From: Pseudomonas sp. ADAK18 | GTDB taxonomy: Bacteria; Pseudomonadota; Gammaproteobacteria; Pseudomonadales; Pseudomonadaceae | Reading direction: 5' to 3' | Length of the DNA: 64,000 nt | NCBI RefSeq assembly: GCF_012935695.1 | Contig: NZ_CP052859.1 | Span: 5,497,001 to 5,561,000, forward strand | Part shown: in pieces, positions 33,622 through 39,873 of the stretch | Position numbering within the stretch: position 1 is the stretch's first letter | Layout: each line of letters opens with the position of its first letter | Program-made: the position numbers and the translations under genes | Notes under the pieces: model-generated | The model's database searches: none | What the model saw: the letters and a program-made list of their open reading frames with translations, nothing else | Told to the model about the DNA's origin: nothing

Positions 33622-33915
33622 TTAGAACGTCACCATTTCCGGGTAGATCCGCCGTACCCTCATCACCCCCATTTGCAGTCCAAATGGGCGGAATACGGCA
33701 TTCAACGACTTCAAAGTCGGATTCCCTTGTCCGTGTTCGATATGCACCAACGTACGAACTGAAATTTTGCACATTTTGGCGAATTGGCTTTGATGCAAAC
33801 CGGTGGCCTCCACGCGCAAACGACGCACCGCTTCTCCTATCTCCAACGTTCCTTGGGCAAACCCTCGCTCGATGCTCTCTATCAACTGGGCACGGTCGTC
33901 GACTGAAAGTGTCAT
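33622..33915 (-). CDS. HipB-like HTH antitoxin
   Basis: 97 residues with an XRE helix-turn-helix (about 36-80: TGLHQSQFAKMCKISVRTLVHIEHGQGNPTLKSLNAVFRPFG). Its ATG overlaps the stop of the HipA-like gene (ATGA), so the kinase gene comes first, the reverse of E. coli hipBA. Expected to bind the HipA protein and the operator array upstream of hipA. Confidence 0.85.
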   Translation of the reverse strand: MTLSVDDRAQLIESIERGFAQGTLEIGEAVRRLRVEATGLHQSQFAKMCKISVRTLVHIEHGQGNPTLKSLNAVFRPFGLQMGVMRVRRIYPEMVTF

Positions 33916-35252
33916 TTCAACCCCCAGCTATTCAAGTGTTGATCAAGGCCGCGCAACTTAATGCCGGGATGGTTCAAAGTAACGTCCGGCAATCCGTTGT
34001 CCGCCAGAACGTCCGGCAGTGCCCGCAAGTGCTCGGCGTCTTGTCGGAGCCGCTCAAAAGCTTGTTCGGGATCAATGAACGGTGAAAGAACATCACAGAC
34101 GCCACGCCAGTCGATATCACCTGCCACCTCCAGAGAACGCGGCCATTTCGTCGTGCGGGTAATGCCCTCGTCATCCATGACCATAGGCGCCAGATCATAA
34201 ATAGGCGCCAGACGTAGGCTGTCAGTACCTCGAATAATCGAAGTGTTACGCCCATGATTGTCTGAGTTGCCCAAGATTTTGTTCAGCAAGTCACGACGCA
34301 GATAGTCTGCAATCAAATCGGTCACTTGGTCGCCCTGGTTGGCCTGTTTCCATTTGCCGACCAGTGCACGCACCACGTCCAAGTGCGACATGGCACTGCC
34401 GGGCGCAGTGTTACCTGCCAATGAGTAAATTGACTCGACCGCAAAACGCTCGACCCCTTGAGTACTGACATTACGGTCAAAACGGTGCATCCATAAGCTG
34501 GGCTTTATCCCTTCGCCATCCTCCAGCACCAATCCCTCGGCCGCGACAGTATCGATGCCCAGTGCCTGTAGTGCCTTGTAGTAGTGGAATTCGCTCCTGA
34601 GAATGTCTTGGTCTCTCTGCAAACCTTTATTGCGAGCGAACTTGATAAACCAGTGCTGGCTGACGTGCTCATCGCTCAATACCGCGTCGGGGTACAGGAG
34701 CCCTTCATGGTTCTGAGCCAACAATAATTTCGGCGCCTCGCCACCCGCGCCAGTGGCACCACCAATCGCGGCACCTTCTTCGTAGGCGTACTCAAGAAAA
34801 CGGGTGTCGCGCTCAACCACTTCCTTGCGTGCAAACCCTATGGCTGGCCGCCCCTCGTCTGCCTGCACAGACTCCTTGATACGCATATGGCCAATCGGCG
34901 CCTGCGTACTACGTGCCAGCAGAAACAGATCAGCGCCGATATGATCCGGTTTTTGCCGCCCAATGCGCTCCATAAGGAAACGCTTTGCAGCGCCCGCAGG
35001 TGCAATGTCATAGAGAAAGGCCGGAGCTTGCCCCGGTGTCTCCTGCGCCCAATTCAATGGCACCTGGGCACTGACCGCGTTGGCAAATATAGTTTCAACC
35101 CGCTCGTAATGACTGTTCAGGTAATCGGAGTCATAGGAAAACCGGCAAGGGCTGGCAAAACCATTTTGCGGCTCAGCAAATTCGAGAATCATCGCGTCCT
35201 GCCAATGGCATTTATCGAAAATCTGAAGCGTCAGCCTGAAAGAGGTATCCAT
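33912..35252 (-). CDS. HipA-family serine/threonine kinase toxin
   Basis: 446 residues from the ATG at 35252; in-frame ATG 35294 and TTG 35318 are alternatives and none has a good ribosome site. HipA fold: Gly-rich loop GATGAGGEAPKLLLA, catalytic LGNSDNHGRNTSI (Asp and Asn of the HipA active site) and metal-binding APIYDLAPM. HipA of E. coli phosphorylates GltX and causes growth arrest and persistence; the target here is unknown. The N-terminal 100 residues differ from E. coli HipA. GC content is lower than in neighbouring genes, suggesting acquisition. Confidence 0.87.
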   Translation of the reverse strand: MDTSFRLTLQIFDKCHWQDAMILEFAEPQNGFASPCRFSYDSDYLNSHYERVETIFANAVSAQVPLNWAQETPGQAPAFLYDIAPAGAAKRFLMERIGRQKPDHIGADLFLLARSTQAPIGHMRIKESVQADEGRPAIGFARKEVVERDTRFLEYAYEEGAAIGGATGAGGEAPKLLLAQNHEGLLYPDAVLSDEHVSQHWFIKFARNKGLQRDQDILRSEFHYYKALQALGIDTVAAEGLVLEDGEGIKPSLWMHRFDRNVSTQGVERFAVESIYSLAGNTAPGSAMSHLDVVRALVGKWKQANQGDQVTDLIADYLRRDLLNKILGNSDNHGRNTSIIRGTDSLRLAPIYDLAPMVMDDEGITRTTKWPRSLEVAGDIDWRGVCDVLSPFIDPEQAFERLRQDAEHLRALPDVLADNGLPDVTLNHPGIKLRGLDQHLNSWGLK

Positions 35253-35253
35253 C

Positions 35254-35392
35254 CGCAATTTAATGCACCTGAAAGGCAGTAGAGGGTAATTCATTTGCAA
35301 TATAGTGCATAAACACAATCTGCGCAGACCTACAAGCGCAATAAAATGCGTACATGCTAAGCATCAGGTAAAATAAACGCAATAAAATGCAC
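35254..35392. promoter_or_regulatory. array of four operator-like 15-mers upstream of hipA
   Basis: CGCAATTTAATGCAC (35254), TGCAATATAGTGCAT (35296), CGCAATAAAATGCGT (35337), CGCAATAAAATGCAC (35378): common core GCAATnnAnTGC with inverted GCA/TGC ends. Start-to-start distances are 42, 41 and 41 bp, about four helical turns. The array lies between the divergent hipA and autotransporter genes and abuts the hipA start. Confidence 0.75.
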
Positions 35393-35479
35393 ATCCCTCT
35401 TCGTCGCTTCCCTGACATATTCCTGTAAACACCCTCCGCTATACAGGTCGCCTCGTTTCCTAAAACAAGGTCGATCACC

Positions 35480-38446
35480 ATGCCCTCCTCGCCTCACCGT
35501 CTTGCGCTCACCCTCGCCCTGCTGACCGGCGGCGGCTTCGTTGAACTGGCGCAGGCCAAGACAGTGCAGATCGACACACCAACCACTACCGCGCAAACCC
35601 TGGGCGGCAGTGACACGCTGACGACCTCGGCACCCGGCAGCATCACCACCGCCAAGGTGGCGGTCACCCTCAAGGACGGTACCAGCGGCAAGGGCGTGGT
35701 GATTGATAACGCGGGCACCCTCGTCTCCACTGGAGGCCGGGCCATCGACAGCAGTGGCGACCTCACCAAGGCGCGCAACTACAGCATTTACAACCGCGCA
35801 GGCGGAGTGATCCAGGGCGCCAACGACGCGCTGCGCATTGACAGCAACTTCGCCAGCGGCAGCCTGTTGATCGACAACAGCGGCACCATTCGCTCTGCCA
35901 CCGGCCAAGGCCTGGACCTGGATGCAGTCCGCAGCAATAACGTGACCACCACCCTCATCAACCGCGCAGGCGGGTTGATCCGGGGCGATGCCAGTGACGG
36001 CATGAAGACCGGCGCCAACGCCACCCTCACCAACTACGGCGAGATTTCCACCGGCGACACCTTCTCCCGGGATGACAAGTTCGATGGCGTCGATATCGAC
36101 TCGGCCACCGGCGTGACCGTGACCAACTACGGGACCATTTCCGGTGGGCGTCACGGCATTACCACTGACCTGGGCGCAACGTTGACCAACTACGGCACAG
36201 TGATCGGTCGCAACGGCTCCGGCTTTGGTTCTGATGGCGACGGCACGGTGATCAACCACGGCACCATCACCGGCGCGTATTCCGGGCTGCAACCTGATGG
36301 CGATGGTGACGGCGTGGACATCGACAAGATCGCCCATATCGAAAACTACGGCGTCATCCAAGGCACAGGCGCGGGCGGTGTCGACAAGAACGGCTTTGCC
36401 AACGGCAGCGAAGGCATCGCCCTCGGCGGCGGCTATGTATTCAACGGCGTTGGCGCACGCGTGAGCGGCGCCAACAACGCGATCCTGGTGGACGACGGCA
36501 GCGACGGATCCGGATTGGCCGCCACCACCCTGGAAAACCACGGCACCATCGAAGGTCTGAATGGCTTTGGCGTGAAGTTCGTCGGCGAGTTTGCCGACAC
36601 GGTAATCAACGCCGGCTTGATCAGCGCCAGCAACGGCCTGGCCCTGGATCTGGGCGGTGGCGATGACAACCTGATCCTGCGCAACGGCAGCCGTTTTGTC
36701 GGCGTGGTGGACGGCGGCAGCGGTTACGACCGCCTGACCATGGACGACACCGCCGGCGGCAGTTTTGGTGACAGTCGTAACTTCGAATCGCTGAACGTCA
36801 AACAGGGCACCTGGACCCTGACCGGCAGCGGCGACTTCAGCGACGGTGGAGAGATCTACAGCGGTGCCAAGCTGATCAACCAGGGAGGGATCGTCGGCAA
36901 CCTGACGGTCGACGAAGGGGGGATTTATGCAGGTGGCGGCAGTGTCGGCAGCCTGTTGGTCAAAGGTACGCTGCAGACCAACACGGCGCTGGGCACCGCC
37001 AGCATCACCCGCGACCTGACCATGACCAGCGGCTCGACCCTGGCCTATGGCGTCAACGCCGATGGCAGCAGCGCACCGATCAACGTCGGCGGCACCGCCT
37101 ACCTCAATGGCGCAACCCTCGCCGTGAATCCCGGCAGCGGTGCTTATCCATGGCAGAGCCATTACACGGTGCTGCAGGCGGGCAGCATCAATGGCACCTT
37201 CAGCACGGTCACCAGCGACTATGCCTTCCTGACCCCTACCCTGGATTACAGCCCGACCCAGGTCGGCCTGACCTACGCCCGTAACGATGTAGCGTTCAAT
37301 CAGTTCGCCAGCACCGGCAACGGCAGTAGCGCCGCCAACAGCCTGGCGACCCTGGGCAAAAACAACGCGCTGTATAACGCCCTGCTCAACACCACCACTG
37401 GCACCGCAGGCGCAGCCATCGAACAATTGGCGGGCAGCAGCACCGCCAACCTGACCAGCGCCACCCTCGGCGCCAGTGCCCAGGTCGGCACCAGCATGCT
37501 GACAGCCCTGCATCAACTGGGCGGCGGTGCAGGATTGCTGGTCGGGGTTGATCAGGGCGATACACCTGCTCTCGCGGCCACTGGCGTACCGGCCGAGGCG
37601 CGCAACCTCAATGACCCAAATGCCCGAGGCCGCCTATGGCTGCAAGGCATCGGCAGCTACGGCAAGCTCGACGGCGACCACGGCAGCAATGGCCTGACCC
37701 AGCGCACCAAGGGCAGCGTGCTCGGCGCCGATTGGGCGCTCAACCCTGAGTGGCGGGTGGGTGTGCTGGCCGGCTATTCGAAGACCGACCTGGACACCAC
37801 CGGCGTCGACGGCAGCGTCGACAGCTGGCACGCCGGGGTCTACGCCATGCGCCAGAGCGGGCCGCTGGCCTTGCGCCTGGGGGCGGCTTACAGCGGGCAT
37901 CAAGGAGACAGCAAACGCACCGTGACCTTCAATGGTTTCAACGACCGGCCCAAGGGTGACTACGACGCCAACAGCCAGCAAGCTTTCGCCGAAGTGGGTT
38001 ATGCCATGGGCAGCGGGCGCCTGAGTGCCGAGCCGTTCGCCAACCTGGGTTATCAGCGCTACCACCGTGACAGCTATAGCGAAAAAGGTGGCGCTGCGGC
38101 GCTGCGGGTCGAGGGGCAAACCCAGGATAATTTCAGCAGTACTTTCGGTCTGCGCCTGGCGCATTTGAGCCAACTGGAAAGCGGCATCAGCCTCACGCCA
38201 CGGATCAGCGCCGGCTGGAAACATACCTACGGCGACGTCGACAGCAGCACCCGCCAAGCCTTCCTGATGGGGGGCACCGCCTTCAATGTCGAAGGCAGCG
38301 CCCTGGATCGCGACAGCTTGCTACTGGAAGCAGGGCTGGATATCGGCCTGTCGGCACGCCATACCCTCGGTGTCGGCTACAGCGGTGAAATCGGCAGTAA
38401 CAGTCGCAATCATGGCCTGATCGGGCAATGGCAGATGAGTTTTTAA
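35480..38446 (+). CDS. autotransporter (type Va secretion) with repeat passenger
   Basis: 988 residues. Signal peptide about 1-26 (VELAQA-KTV). Passenger about 27-700 with many beta-helix turns of the N-[YH]-G-x-I-x-G kind (e.g. LTNYGTVIGRNG, VINHGTITGAYSG, LENHGTIEGLNG), then a C-terminal 12-strand beta-barrel (about 713-988) ending in the required aromatic (QWQMSF). The passenger has no catalytic motif I recognise; such pectin-lyase-like helices are often adhesins. No obvious cleavage site. Divergent from hipA, close to its operator array. Ribosome site AAGG. Confidence 0.9.
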   Translation: MPSSPHRLALTLALLTGGGFVELAQAKTVQIDTPTTTAQTLGGSDTLTTSAPGSITTAKVAVTLKDGTSGKGVVIDNAGTLVSTGGRAIDSSGDLTKARNYSIYNRAGGVIQGANDALRIDSNFASGSLLIDNSGTIRSATGQGLDLDAVRSNNVTTTLINRAGGLIRGDASDGMKTGANATLTNYGEISTGDTFSRDDKFDGVDIDSATGVTVTNYGTISGGRHGITTDLGATLTNYGTVIGRNGSGFGSDGDGTVINHGTITGAYSGLQPDGDGDGVDIDKIAHIENYGVIQGTGAGGVDKNGFANGSEGIALGGGYVFNGVGARVSGANNAILVDDGSDGSGLAATTLENHGTIEGLNGFGVKFVGEFADTVINAGLISASNGLALDLGGGDDNLILRNGSRFVGVVDGGSGYDRLTMDDTAGGSFGDSRNFESLNVKQGTWTLTGSGDFSDGGEIYSGAKLINQGGIVGNLTVDEGGIYAGGGSVGSLLVKGTLQTNTALGTASITRDLTMTSGSTLAYGVNADGSSAPINVGGTAYLNGATLAVNPGSGAYPWQSHYTVLQAGSINGTFSTVTSDYAFLTPTLDYSPTQVGLTYARNDVAFNQFASTGNGSSAANSLATLGKNNALYNALLNTTTGTAGAAIEQLAGSSTANLTSATLGASAQVGTSMLTALHQLGGGAGLLVGVDQGDTPALAATGVPAEARNLNDPNARGRLWLQGIGSYGKLDGDHGSNGLTQRTKGSVLGADWALNPEWRVGVLAGYSKTDLDTTGVDGSVDSWHAGVYAMRQSGPLALRLGAAYSGHQGDSKRTVTFNGFNDRPKGDYDANSQQAFAEVGYAMGSGRLSAEPFANLGYQRYHRDSYSEKGGAAALRVEGQTQDNFSSTFGLRLAHLSQLESGISLTPRISAGWKHTYGDVDSSTRQAFLMGGTAFNVEGSALDRDSLLLEAGLDIGLSARHTLGVGYSGEIGSNSRNHGLIGQWQMSF

Positions 38447-38556: not shown

Positions 38557-39873
38557 ATGCCTTTCACATCACAGCGACTCGTACTCGCCATTGCCCTCGC
38601 GCTGGGCGCTACCAGCATTCAATACGCTCAGGCACGGGGAGACATGGAGCCGGACAGCGAGTGGTTCACCCAAAGCTCCGTTGACGACACAAAGGAGCAA
38701 CACCACCCCGCGCTACCCGAGCCCACCACCGACTTCTACTTCGCCGACCACGCGACCTCCCGCAACGGCCTGCGCGCGGCCCACGTACTGGACTCTGCCG
38801 TCGATGCCCTGTTGGATTCGGACGAGTTGACCGAGTGGGATCGATACGAGCTCGAGAATATCGGGCAGTACCTGAGCGGCCTGGAACCGGGCCGGGTCGG
38901 TGCCGTCCTGGAGCAACTGGCGGCCAGTCAGAATGCCAACCTGGGTACCGCCACCCAAAAAGGCATGGAACAAATAAACAGCGGCTTGCTGCTTGCCATG
39001 CGCCAATTGCCCGACAGCCCAGGCGAGTCTGGCGGTCGCGTCTGGGTCCAGGGCCTGAACAACGGTGGCCGCCTGGACGGGCAACATGGCAGTGCCGGCT
39101 TGCAGCAAGACACCAAAGGCATGGTGATCGGTGCCGACTGGGCCGTGACCCATGATTGGCGAGTGGGATTAATGGGCGGTAAATCCGCCAGCAACTTTGA
39201 CGCCAAACGCTTTCACGCCGAACTGGATAGCTGGCACCTGGGCGCTTACGCCGTGCGCCAGGATGGCCCCCTGGCGCTTCGCCTCGGGGCGATGTACAGC
39301 AACCATGACGGTCAGAACAAACGGGATGTCGACATTGAGTTCTTCGACTACCGGGAGCAACTCAAGGGCAAGTACAACGCCCAAAGCCAAAACGCCTTCG
39401 CCGAGCTGGGTTACCAAATGGGCAACGGTGACTTCAGCGCCGAGCCGTTCGCCAACATCGGCTACCAGCGCTATCACCGTGACAGCTTCAAGGAAAAAGG
39501 TGGCTTGACGGCCCTGAACGTCGGCGGACAGACCCAGCAAAATCTCAGCAGTACCTTCGGTATCCACCTGGCCAGCCTTTACCGGCTGGATAACCAGATG
39601 AGCCTGAAGCCACATCTGAGCACCCGCTGGAAACACTTGTACGGCAACGTCGACAGCAAGGTTCGGCAGTCTTCCGCCCTGGCAGACAAAAAGGACTTCA
39701 ACAGCGACTTCACTATCGAAGGCACTGCCCTGGACCGCGACAGCCTGGCCCTGCAAGCTGGCCTGGACCTTGGCTTGTCCGCCGACCAGACCGTAGGACT
39801 GGCCTACACCAGCGAGTTTGGCAGCCGCAGTCGTAACCAGGGCATCATTGGCCAATGGGCCATGGCCTTCTGA
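38557..39873 (+). CDS. autotransporter barrel with almost no passenger
   Basis: 438 residues. Signal peptide about 1-26 (YAQA-RGD), then only about 125 residues (acidic, helical, with DALLDSDELTEWDRYELENIGQYLSGL) before a beta-barrel (about 155-438) ending AMAF. The barrel is plainly similar to that of the preceding autotransporter (both have PFANxGYQRYHRDS and a final GxxGQWxM[SA]F). Looks like a tandem duplicate that lost its beta-helix. The gap between the two genes is 110 bp. It may display a short helical domain or serve as an outer membrane protein in its own right. Confidence 0.87.
   Translation: MPFTSQRLVLAIALALGATSIQYAQARGDMEPDSEWFTQSSVDDTKEQHHPALPEPTTDFYFADHATSRNGLRAAHVLDSAVDALLDSDELTEWDRYELENIGQYLSGLEPGRVGAVLEQLAASQNANLGTATQKGMEQINSGLLLAMRQLPDSPGESGGRVWVQGLNNGGRLDGQHGSAGLQQDTKGMVIGADWAVTHDWRVGLMGGKSASNFDAKRFHAELDSWHLGAYAVRQDGPLALRLGAMYSNHDGQNKRDVDIEFFDYREQLKGKYNAQSQNAFAELGYQMGNGDFSAEPFANIGYQRYHRDSFKEKGGLTALNVGGQTQQNLSSTFGIHLASLYRLDNQMSLKPHLSTRWKHLYGNVDSKVRQSSALADKKDFNSDFTIEGTALDRDSLALQAGLDLGLSADQTVGLAYTSEFGSRSRNQGIIGQWAMAF

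Follow-up and report, generated by a model that had tools for sequence, protein, structure and literature searches.

Four near-palindromic candidate operators stand at a regular pitch of 41–42 bp, close to four helical turns, upstream of hipA in a reversed-order hipA-hipB module of Pseudomonas sp. ADAK18. This four-turn pitch is kept in relatives in which the operator word itself changes, and it is unlike the pitch of the E. coli-type modules. We think it probable that the four sites are the autoregulatory operators of hipA-hipB and that HipA-HipB complexes bound to them contact their neighbours at the four-turn pitch.

The array is positioned inside the 227 bp that separate hipA, on the minus strand, from a gene for an autotransporter on the plus strand (35480–38446), a neighbour outside the module; positions are those of the window, the whole 64,000-nucleotide stretch of DNA analysed. 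The preliminary description had reported four operator-like sites at intervals of 42, 41 and 41 bp, and the search reproduced them: the four GCAATnnAnTGC sites start at 35255, 35297, 35338 and 35379, and exact matches to GCAATNNANTGC are found at 35255–35266, 35297–35308, 35338–35349 and 35379–35390 and nowhere else in the 64-kb window. Every site is a near-palindrome of the form GCAnTWWAnTGC, a feature that had been overlooked. Candidate operator site 1 (GCAATTTAATGC, or GCATTAAATTGC on the hipA strand) lies 2 bp before the assigned hipA ATG, with its counterpart in relatives at about −13; site 2, the least variable of the four, reads GCACTATATTGC on the hipA strand; and sites 3 and 4, the latter nearest the autotransporter, both read GCATTTTATTGC on that strand. 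At 10.5 bp per turn, 41–42 bp corresponds to 3.9–4.0 turns, which places all four on the same side of the helix, as had been proposed. The 6.47-Mb genome holds 42 forward and 41 reverse matches to GCAATNNANTGC, with the four sites of the array counted in; the word alone is therefore unspecific, and what distinguishes the array is its clustering and its pitch. Dinucleotide shuffling of the 227-bp stretch (20,000 shuffles) gave at most two occurrences of the GCAATNNANTGC word against the four observed, and a chance origin of the array was rejected on this ground; the looser GCAN6TGC, also observed four times, reached four in a single shuffle. Structured RNA was set aside as an explanation, with Rfam giving no match in 35200–35500.

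The hipA gene (33912–35252, minus strand) encodes a 446-aa predicted toxin with a kinase fold, and hipB (33622–33915, minus strand), which overlaps hipA by 4 bp, encodes a 97-aa helix-turn-helix (HTH) antitoxin identified by Pfam (HTH_3, 1.1e-07) and by its predicted model. HipA scores over the Pfam cut-off for HipA_C; its predicted model fits E. coli HipA across residues 5–446, and residues N329, D331, N332, H333 and D353, which we take to form the catalytic motifs, are unvarying in 54 aligned sequences. A full-length HipA fold with kinase motifs and an adjoining HTH antitoxin gene thus mark the locus as a hipA-hipB module, and the toxin gene precedes the antitoxin gene, the order of reversed hipAB and HipE modules. 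A hipB match lies 0–51 bp downstream of hipA in all 135 regions compared below. The first reading of the sites as operator-like, phased with the helix and belonging to the hipA of a reversed module is supported. In E. coli K-12 hipBA (clade I), by contrast, hipB lies upstream of hipA and four TATCCN8GGATA sites start 28, 39 and 28 bp apart; these sites were located and compared, and the core in the window does differ from theirs, as first described. HipA of the window does not group with the E. coli type: a 60-row HipA tree, midpoint-rooted for drawing, separates the 26 hipBA rows from the 34 hipAB rows with support of 100/100. Nor is the module a HipBST system with separate HipS and HipT, its HipA being a single 446-aa protein that includes the N-terminal part.

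Searches of defence and structure collections added little. With PADLOC, HipA matched weakly and in part, and HipB drew general HTH models (best 1.9e-09); single-sequence PDB searches with either protein gave no match at 0.001. The HipA profile found only weak partial matches in the PDB, to Shewanella HipA and HipT, and the HipB search of the PDB returned for the most part XRE proteins of a general kind; HipB chains, that of E. coli among them, came up only at E ≥ 0.38. A fold search with HipB found 9u9g, a crystal structure named HipB from Pseudomonas fluorescens 2P24, which was unlisted in the HipB sequence search up to E = 10, in a copy of the database that may lack it; found by fold and not by sequence, 9u9g is probably a different HipB from that of the window. 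A literature search for a paper on 9u9g found none. HipB of the window (33625–33915) and of its lineage carries an N-terminal helix of about 17 residues ahead of the HTH domain, a surface through which it may meet HipA or adjoining complexes. Eight genomes (G063, G069, G135, G169, G187, G221, G457 and G551) hold hipA copies that are second, split or stop-containing, which suggests that the module is both gained and degraded.

Comparison among relatives, a check that the preliminary description had suggested, found the sites conserved with hipA. Relatives of hipA (E of 1e-20 or better) are present in 130 of 398 same-genus genomes, the window's own included. From the 137 match rows of this search 110 were taken as loci (30 + 80), the 27 left out being fragments, additional copies and a number of weaker full-length matches; 42 named loci were added to the fetched stretches for the upstream comparison, and 135 distinct upstream regions were kept of 152 after 15 identical ones were merged and two with the hipA start missing (L072, L139) were dropped. 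At least two GCAN6TGC sites stand in 117 of these 135 regions and at least three in 96, the others holding two (21 regions), one (12) or none (6). GCAN6TGC occurs 411 times in these regions, where three permuted control words occur 2, 12 and 2 times, and two hipA coding stretches hold 32 and 21 of its sites. The permuted word CAGN6CTG, with 12 occurrences upstream, reaches 35 and 63 in the same coding stretches, where it is commoner than GCAN6TGC, so that triplet words vary with codon use. Site positions cluster at about −13, −55, −97 and −138 relative to the hipA start, and the distances between sites are almost all 41 bp (113 cases) or 42 bp (141), with one of 40 and three of 43, and with multiples at 82–84 bp (157) and 124–126 bp (60). 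Spacers of equal length are just 31–36% identical between loci; it is the length of the spacer that is kept and not its sequence. Site 1 is absent in six regions (L102, L103, L107, L109, L113 and L116). Some same-genus regions carry another palindrome, AATCnGCA...TGCnGATT, and across the 15 most divergent regions of the genus the self-match peaks at lag 42 (z 5.3).

At the place of site 2, GCACTATA is found in 83 of the 135 regions, and TATATT within this site (35299–35304, minus strand) is probably the −10 element, as proposed from the invariance of site 2. A sigma-70 promoter and terminator scan of 35150–35560 returned no promoter over threshold, and no conserved −35 was found among the 135 regions. 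Site 1 sits between TATATT and the hipA start; the ATG follows it by 9–13 bp in 75 of the 92 regions in which both could be placed and by 2 bp in 12. The hipA ATG of the window is itself 2 bp past site 1, and the start in most relatives is some three codons further on, behind an AGGTG-like ribosome site that adjoins site 1.

The operator word and a segment of HipB that we take to be the recognition helix, from knowledge of HTH_3 proteins, change together across relatives. The helix table lists 159 rows, of which 135 come from the genus and 24 from the order; 23 rows fall in no operator class, and the pairs L174/L176 and L175/L178, each from the same place, are all in this no-class group. Among 119 rows with the word TGCAnTWWAnTGCA (class A), 113 have S[VLI]RTL or S[VLI]RAL, and the other six have STK (three), SKR (one), SRR (one) or a misread segment (one). 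STK is found in 6 of 8 rows of the TCnGCA class (B), and SRR or ARR in 7 of 8 rows of the TGAGCA class (C), the eighth being a row in which no HipB was found; the single GACCA case has SPR. The same data served to define the classes, and relatedness by descent was left in, so the association is support for, and not proof of, HipB reading the array. HipB is nonetheless its likely binder.

The pitch extends beyond the genus. Matches to hipA were found in 22 of 244 genomes in an order-level search and in 5 of 369 in a class-wide sample, the window's own genome included each time; these hipA genes are mostly 32–43% identical, and the palindromes upstream of them read TGAGCA...TGCTCA and GACCA...TGGTC. 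Statistics were taken on 19 order- and class-level loci, 17 of them with less than 45% HipA identity, with partial, broken or start-less copies omitted (L165, L170, L174–L178 and L180). In the 17 loci the mean best 18-bp self-match at lags 41–43 is 13.3, compared with 9.58 ± 0.29 and a largest value of 10.5 in 300 shuffles, and the lag triple centred on 42 is the highest of 80 triples. Lag 41–43 is best or joint best in 16 of the 19 loci and second in two (L159, L164); L172 is without signal. Among the omitted copies, L174, L176 and L177 show the 41–43 pitch, and L170, L175 and L178 (one genome) do not.

E. coli-type modules keep a different distance. With E. coli HipA as query, 57 of the 321 genomes searched in the class held matches. 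Of 31 loci taken up, 29 could be located (not L207 or L210) and 28 entered the statistics, with the ORF preceding hipA called hipB by position only and lags measured upstream of that ORF. The top lag in these 28 loci is 27 (z 6.0), followed by 56, 28 and 54, and the 39-bp middle interval of K-12 is a departure from this 27–28 rule. With 41–43 bp in hipAB and 27–28 bp in hipBA, the two lineages keep two pitches. E. coli K-12 has a fifth perfect TATCCN8GGATA (L153:1555-1572; NC_000913.3, about 1590054–1590071), located about 780 bp past the hipA 3′ end between ydeT and the yneL pseudogene.

The position of the array between two divergent genes had led to the proposal that it silences hipA and the autotransporter together. 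The neighbour of hipA in the 135 regions is a divergent autotransporter in 50, a tandem oadA in 40, a luxR-type gene in 5 and another gene in 40 (oadA and luxR being names that we assign by the look of the proteins), and the array occurs with each of these four kinds of neighbour. At least three sites are found in all 50 autotransporter regions, in 29 of the 40 oadA regions and in 15 of the 40 other-neighbour regions, six of which have none. Joint silencing would be in keeping with the full set of 50, with the intergenic space common to both genes and with the frequency of site 4, which is carried by 43 of the 50 autotransporter regions and by 24 of the 85 others (p = 4e-11), the latter a set that takes in more distant hipA genes. 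At HipA identities of at least 60% the comparison becomes 43 of 50 with 22 of 33 (p = 0.056); when only the oadA regions of such identity are taken for comparison, it is 43 of 50 with 20 of 27 (p = 0.23); most of the difference in site 4 goes with HipA relatedness. The autotransporter moreover has a conserved block of its own between site 4 and its ATG (35414–35447, plus strand; consensus GACATnATTCTGTAAAnnCCCTCCGCTATACAGG), separate from the candidate operators and defined from an alignment of 20 hand-picked regions. In the 18 of 50 autotransporter regions that hold both site 4 and an exact GTATAGCG of this block, GTATAGCG lies at a variable distance of 32–55 bp from site 4, while the step from site 4 to site 3 is 41 bp (15 regions) or 42 bp (3). 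The greater frequency of site 4 beside the autotransporter speaks for the original proposal, and site 4 may have a role at that gene, but the array is also kept where there is no autotransporter, so that joint silencing is not needed to explain it; we regard it as quite unlikely, and joint control of the autotransporter as the main role of the array was rejected on the grounds of the array's presence elsewhere and of the separate block at variable distance. A second autotransporter gene with a short passenger part (38557–39873) directly follows the first, and the oadA of the window lies just past the two, so that the pair looks like an insertion between oadA and hipA.

Regularity of the repeats could also speak for a recent tandem duplication or a functionless chance repeat, an explanation to which we give almost no weight: the repeat units are just 15–16 nt, the spacers are unlike, and the array is conserved within the genus and further out. 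That the sites are the operators of a different regulator controlling hipAB is very improbable, given that the word tracks the HipB recognition helix across relatives and that the array follows hipA through differing neighbourhoods. What would favour such a regulator is one further TGCACTATATTGC in the same genome, at the start of a gene for an XRE-cupin regulator, which indicates that another HTH protein may read a similar word. Against it also stands that the genome has just three other TGCANTWWANTGC places; to the looser GCAATNNANTGC there are about 80 further matches beyond the array. With only three such places genome-wide, of which the one beside this regulator gene was examined in detail, a wide HipB regulon was rejected. 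At that locus (L212:2063-2105; own genome C1, about 3012762), TGCACTATATTGC is the same as site 2 plus flank, and a similar GCAGTATACTGC stands 29 bp further on, near the start of the regulator gene, which is divergent from a gene that we name, like the XRE-cupin regulator, on our own judgement as that of an EamA-like transporter. The two words are possibly the XRE-cupin regulator's own candidate operators.

Autoregulation of hipA-hipB through the candidate operators is thus the reading that the sequence comparisons support well. A HipB dimer is predicted to bind each near-palindrome via its HTH domain, alone and better with HipA, which would act as co-repressor; sites 1 and 2 cover the presumed start region of the operon, and binding there would block initiation and lower hipA-hipB transcription. 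Neighbouring complexes, on one face of the DNA and four turns apart, would most likely touch, in which case filling of the sites would be cooperative and dependent on the HipA:HipB ratio. Sites 3 and 4, further upstream, would make sense mainly as parts of such a larger assembly. In E. coli, full-length HipA molecules reportedly contact each other across the operators, according to a structural paper of 2015. HipB or HipA-HipB might instead bind each site singly, without contact between neighbours; the pitch would then serve a different purpose, for instance to let bulky HipA2B2 complexes share one face without collision or to position the sites around RNA polymerase. Precedent for single binding comes from Legionella, where HipB binds 50-bp fragments with a single operator and where the authors contrast possible partial filling with the cooperativity of E. 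coli (PMC10653801). Avoidance of collision, however, needs a minimum distance and not 41–42 bp in each interval, distances of 32–55 bp being allowed outside the array; sites 3 and 4, at roughly 97 and 138 bp upstream of the hipA start, still keep the pitch and, if the proposed −10 element is correct, lie mostly outside the core promoter. Binding without contact is accordingly an unlikely account of the array, and contact between neighbouring HipA-HipB complexes is the one that we prefer.

Several related systems share parts of this arrangement. In E. coli, binding of HipB to its four operators is cooperative, and HipA serves as co-repressor (PMC3920265). The HipA7 change of E. coli is believed to disturb the dimerisation of HipA within operator-bound complexes and to raise the likelihood of active toxin (PMC7029023). 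HipBST of Legionella pneumophila resembles the array in its evenly spaced, HipB-bound operators, three of which are present in nearly all of 28 species, and differs in its 53-bp gaps, its 18-nt operators of a different word and its split HipS and HipT (PMC10653801). Closer in gene order is hipA-hipB of Shewanella putrefaciens CN-32, a working toxin-antitoxin pair with a 448-aa HipA and an HTH HipB; repression of its promoter is 2.1-fold with HipB and 2.9-fold with HipA/HipB. Unlike the present module, this pair lies on a genomic island and has a HipB of 152 aa (PMC8978831). The words "operator" and "palindrome" are absent from the text of that paper (PMC8978831). The reversed hipAB subclades and HipE of Gerdes 2021 likewise have hipA before hipB and an HTH antitoxin (PMC8262856). 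In Caulobacter, the hipBA1 and hipBA2 promoters have a series of inverted repeats or three operator sites (PMC7029023, PMC8545095), and the intervals of the repeats are said to match those of E. coli (PMC7029023). A search of the openly accessible literature returned no title or abstract that describes operators arrayed at 41–42 bp before a reversed hipAB.

Strict conservation of another pitch in a second lineage provides a natural comparison to E. coli. If toxin-toxin contacts set the pitch, a half-turn change in a spacer should uncouple repression, and perhaps the holding of the toxin on DNA, with the proteins left untouched. Near-palindromes at 41–43 bp before hipA also offer a simple signature for finding and sorting reversed hipAB modules. 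We suggest tentatively, at somewhat less than even chances, that in each Hip lineage the pitch is a ruler of its own, fixed by the contacts that HipA-HipB complexes make with their neighbours on DNA, and that it outlives the operator sequence. Were this so, HipB and the operator word would co-evolve freely while the pitch stays fixed, and the pitch would report the shape of the DNA-bound kinase assembly.
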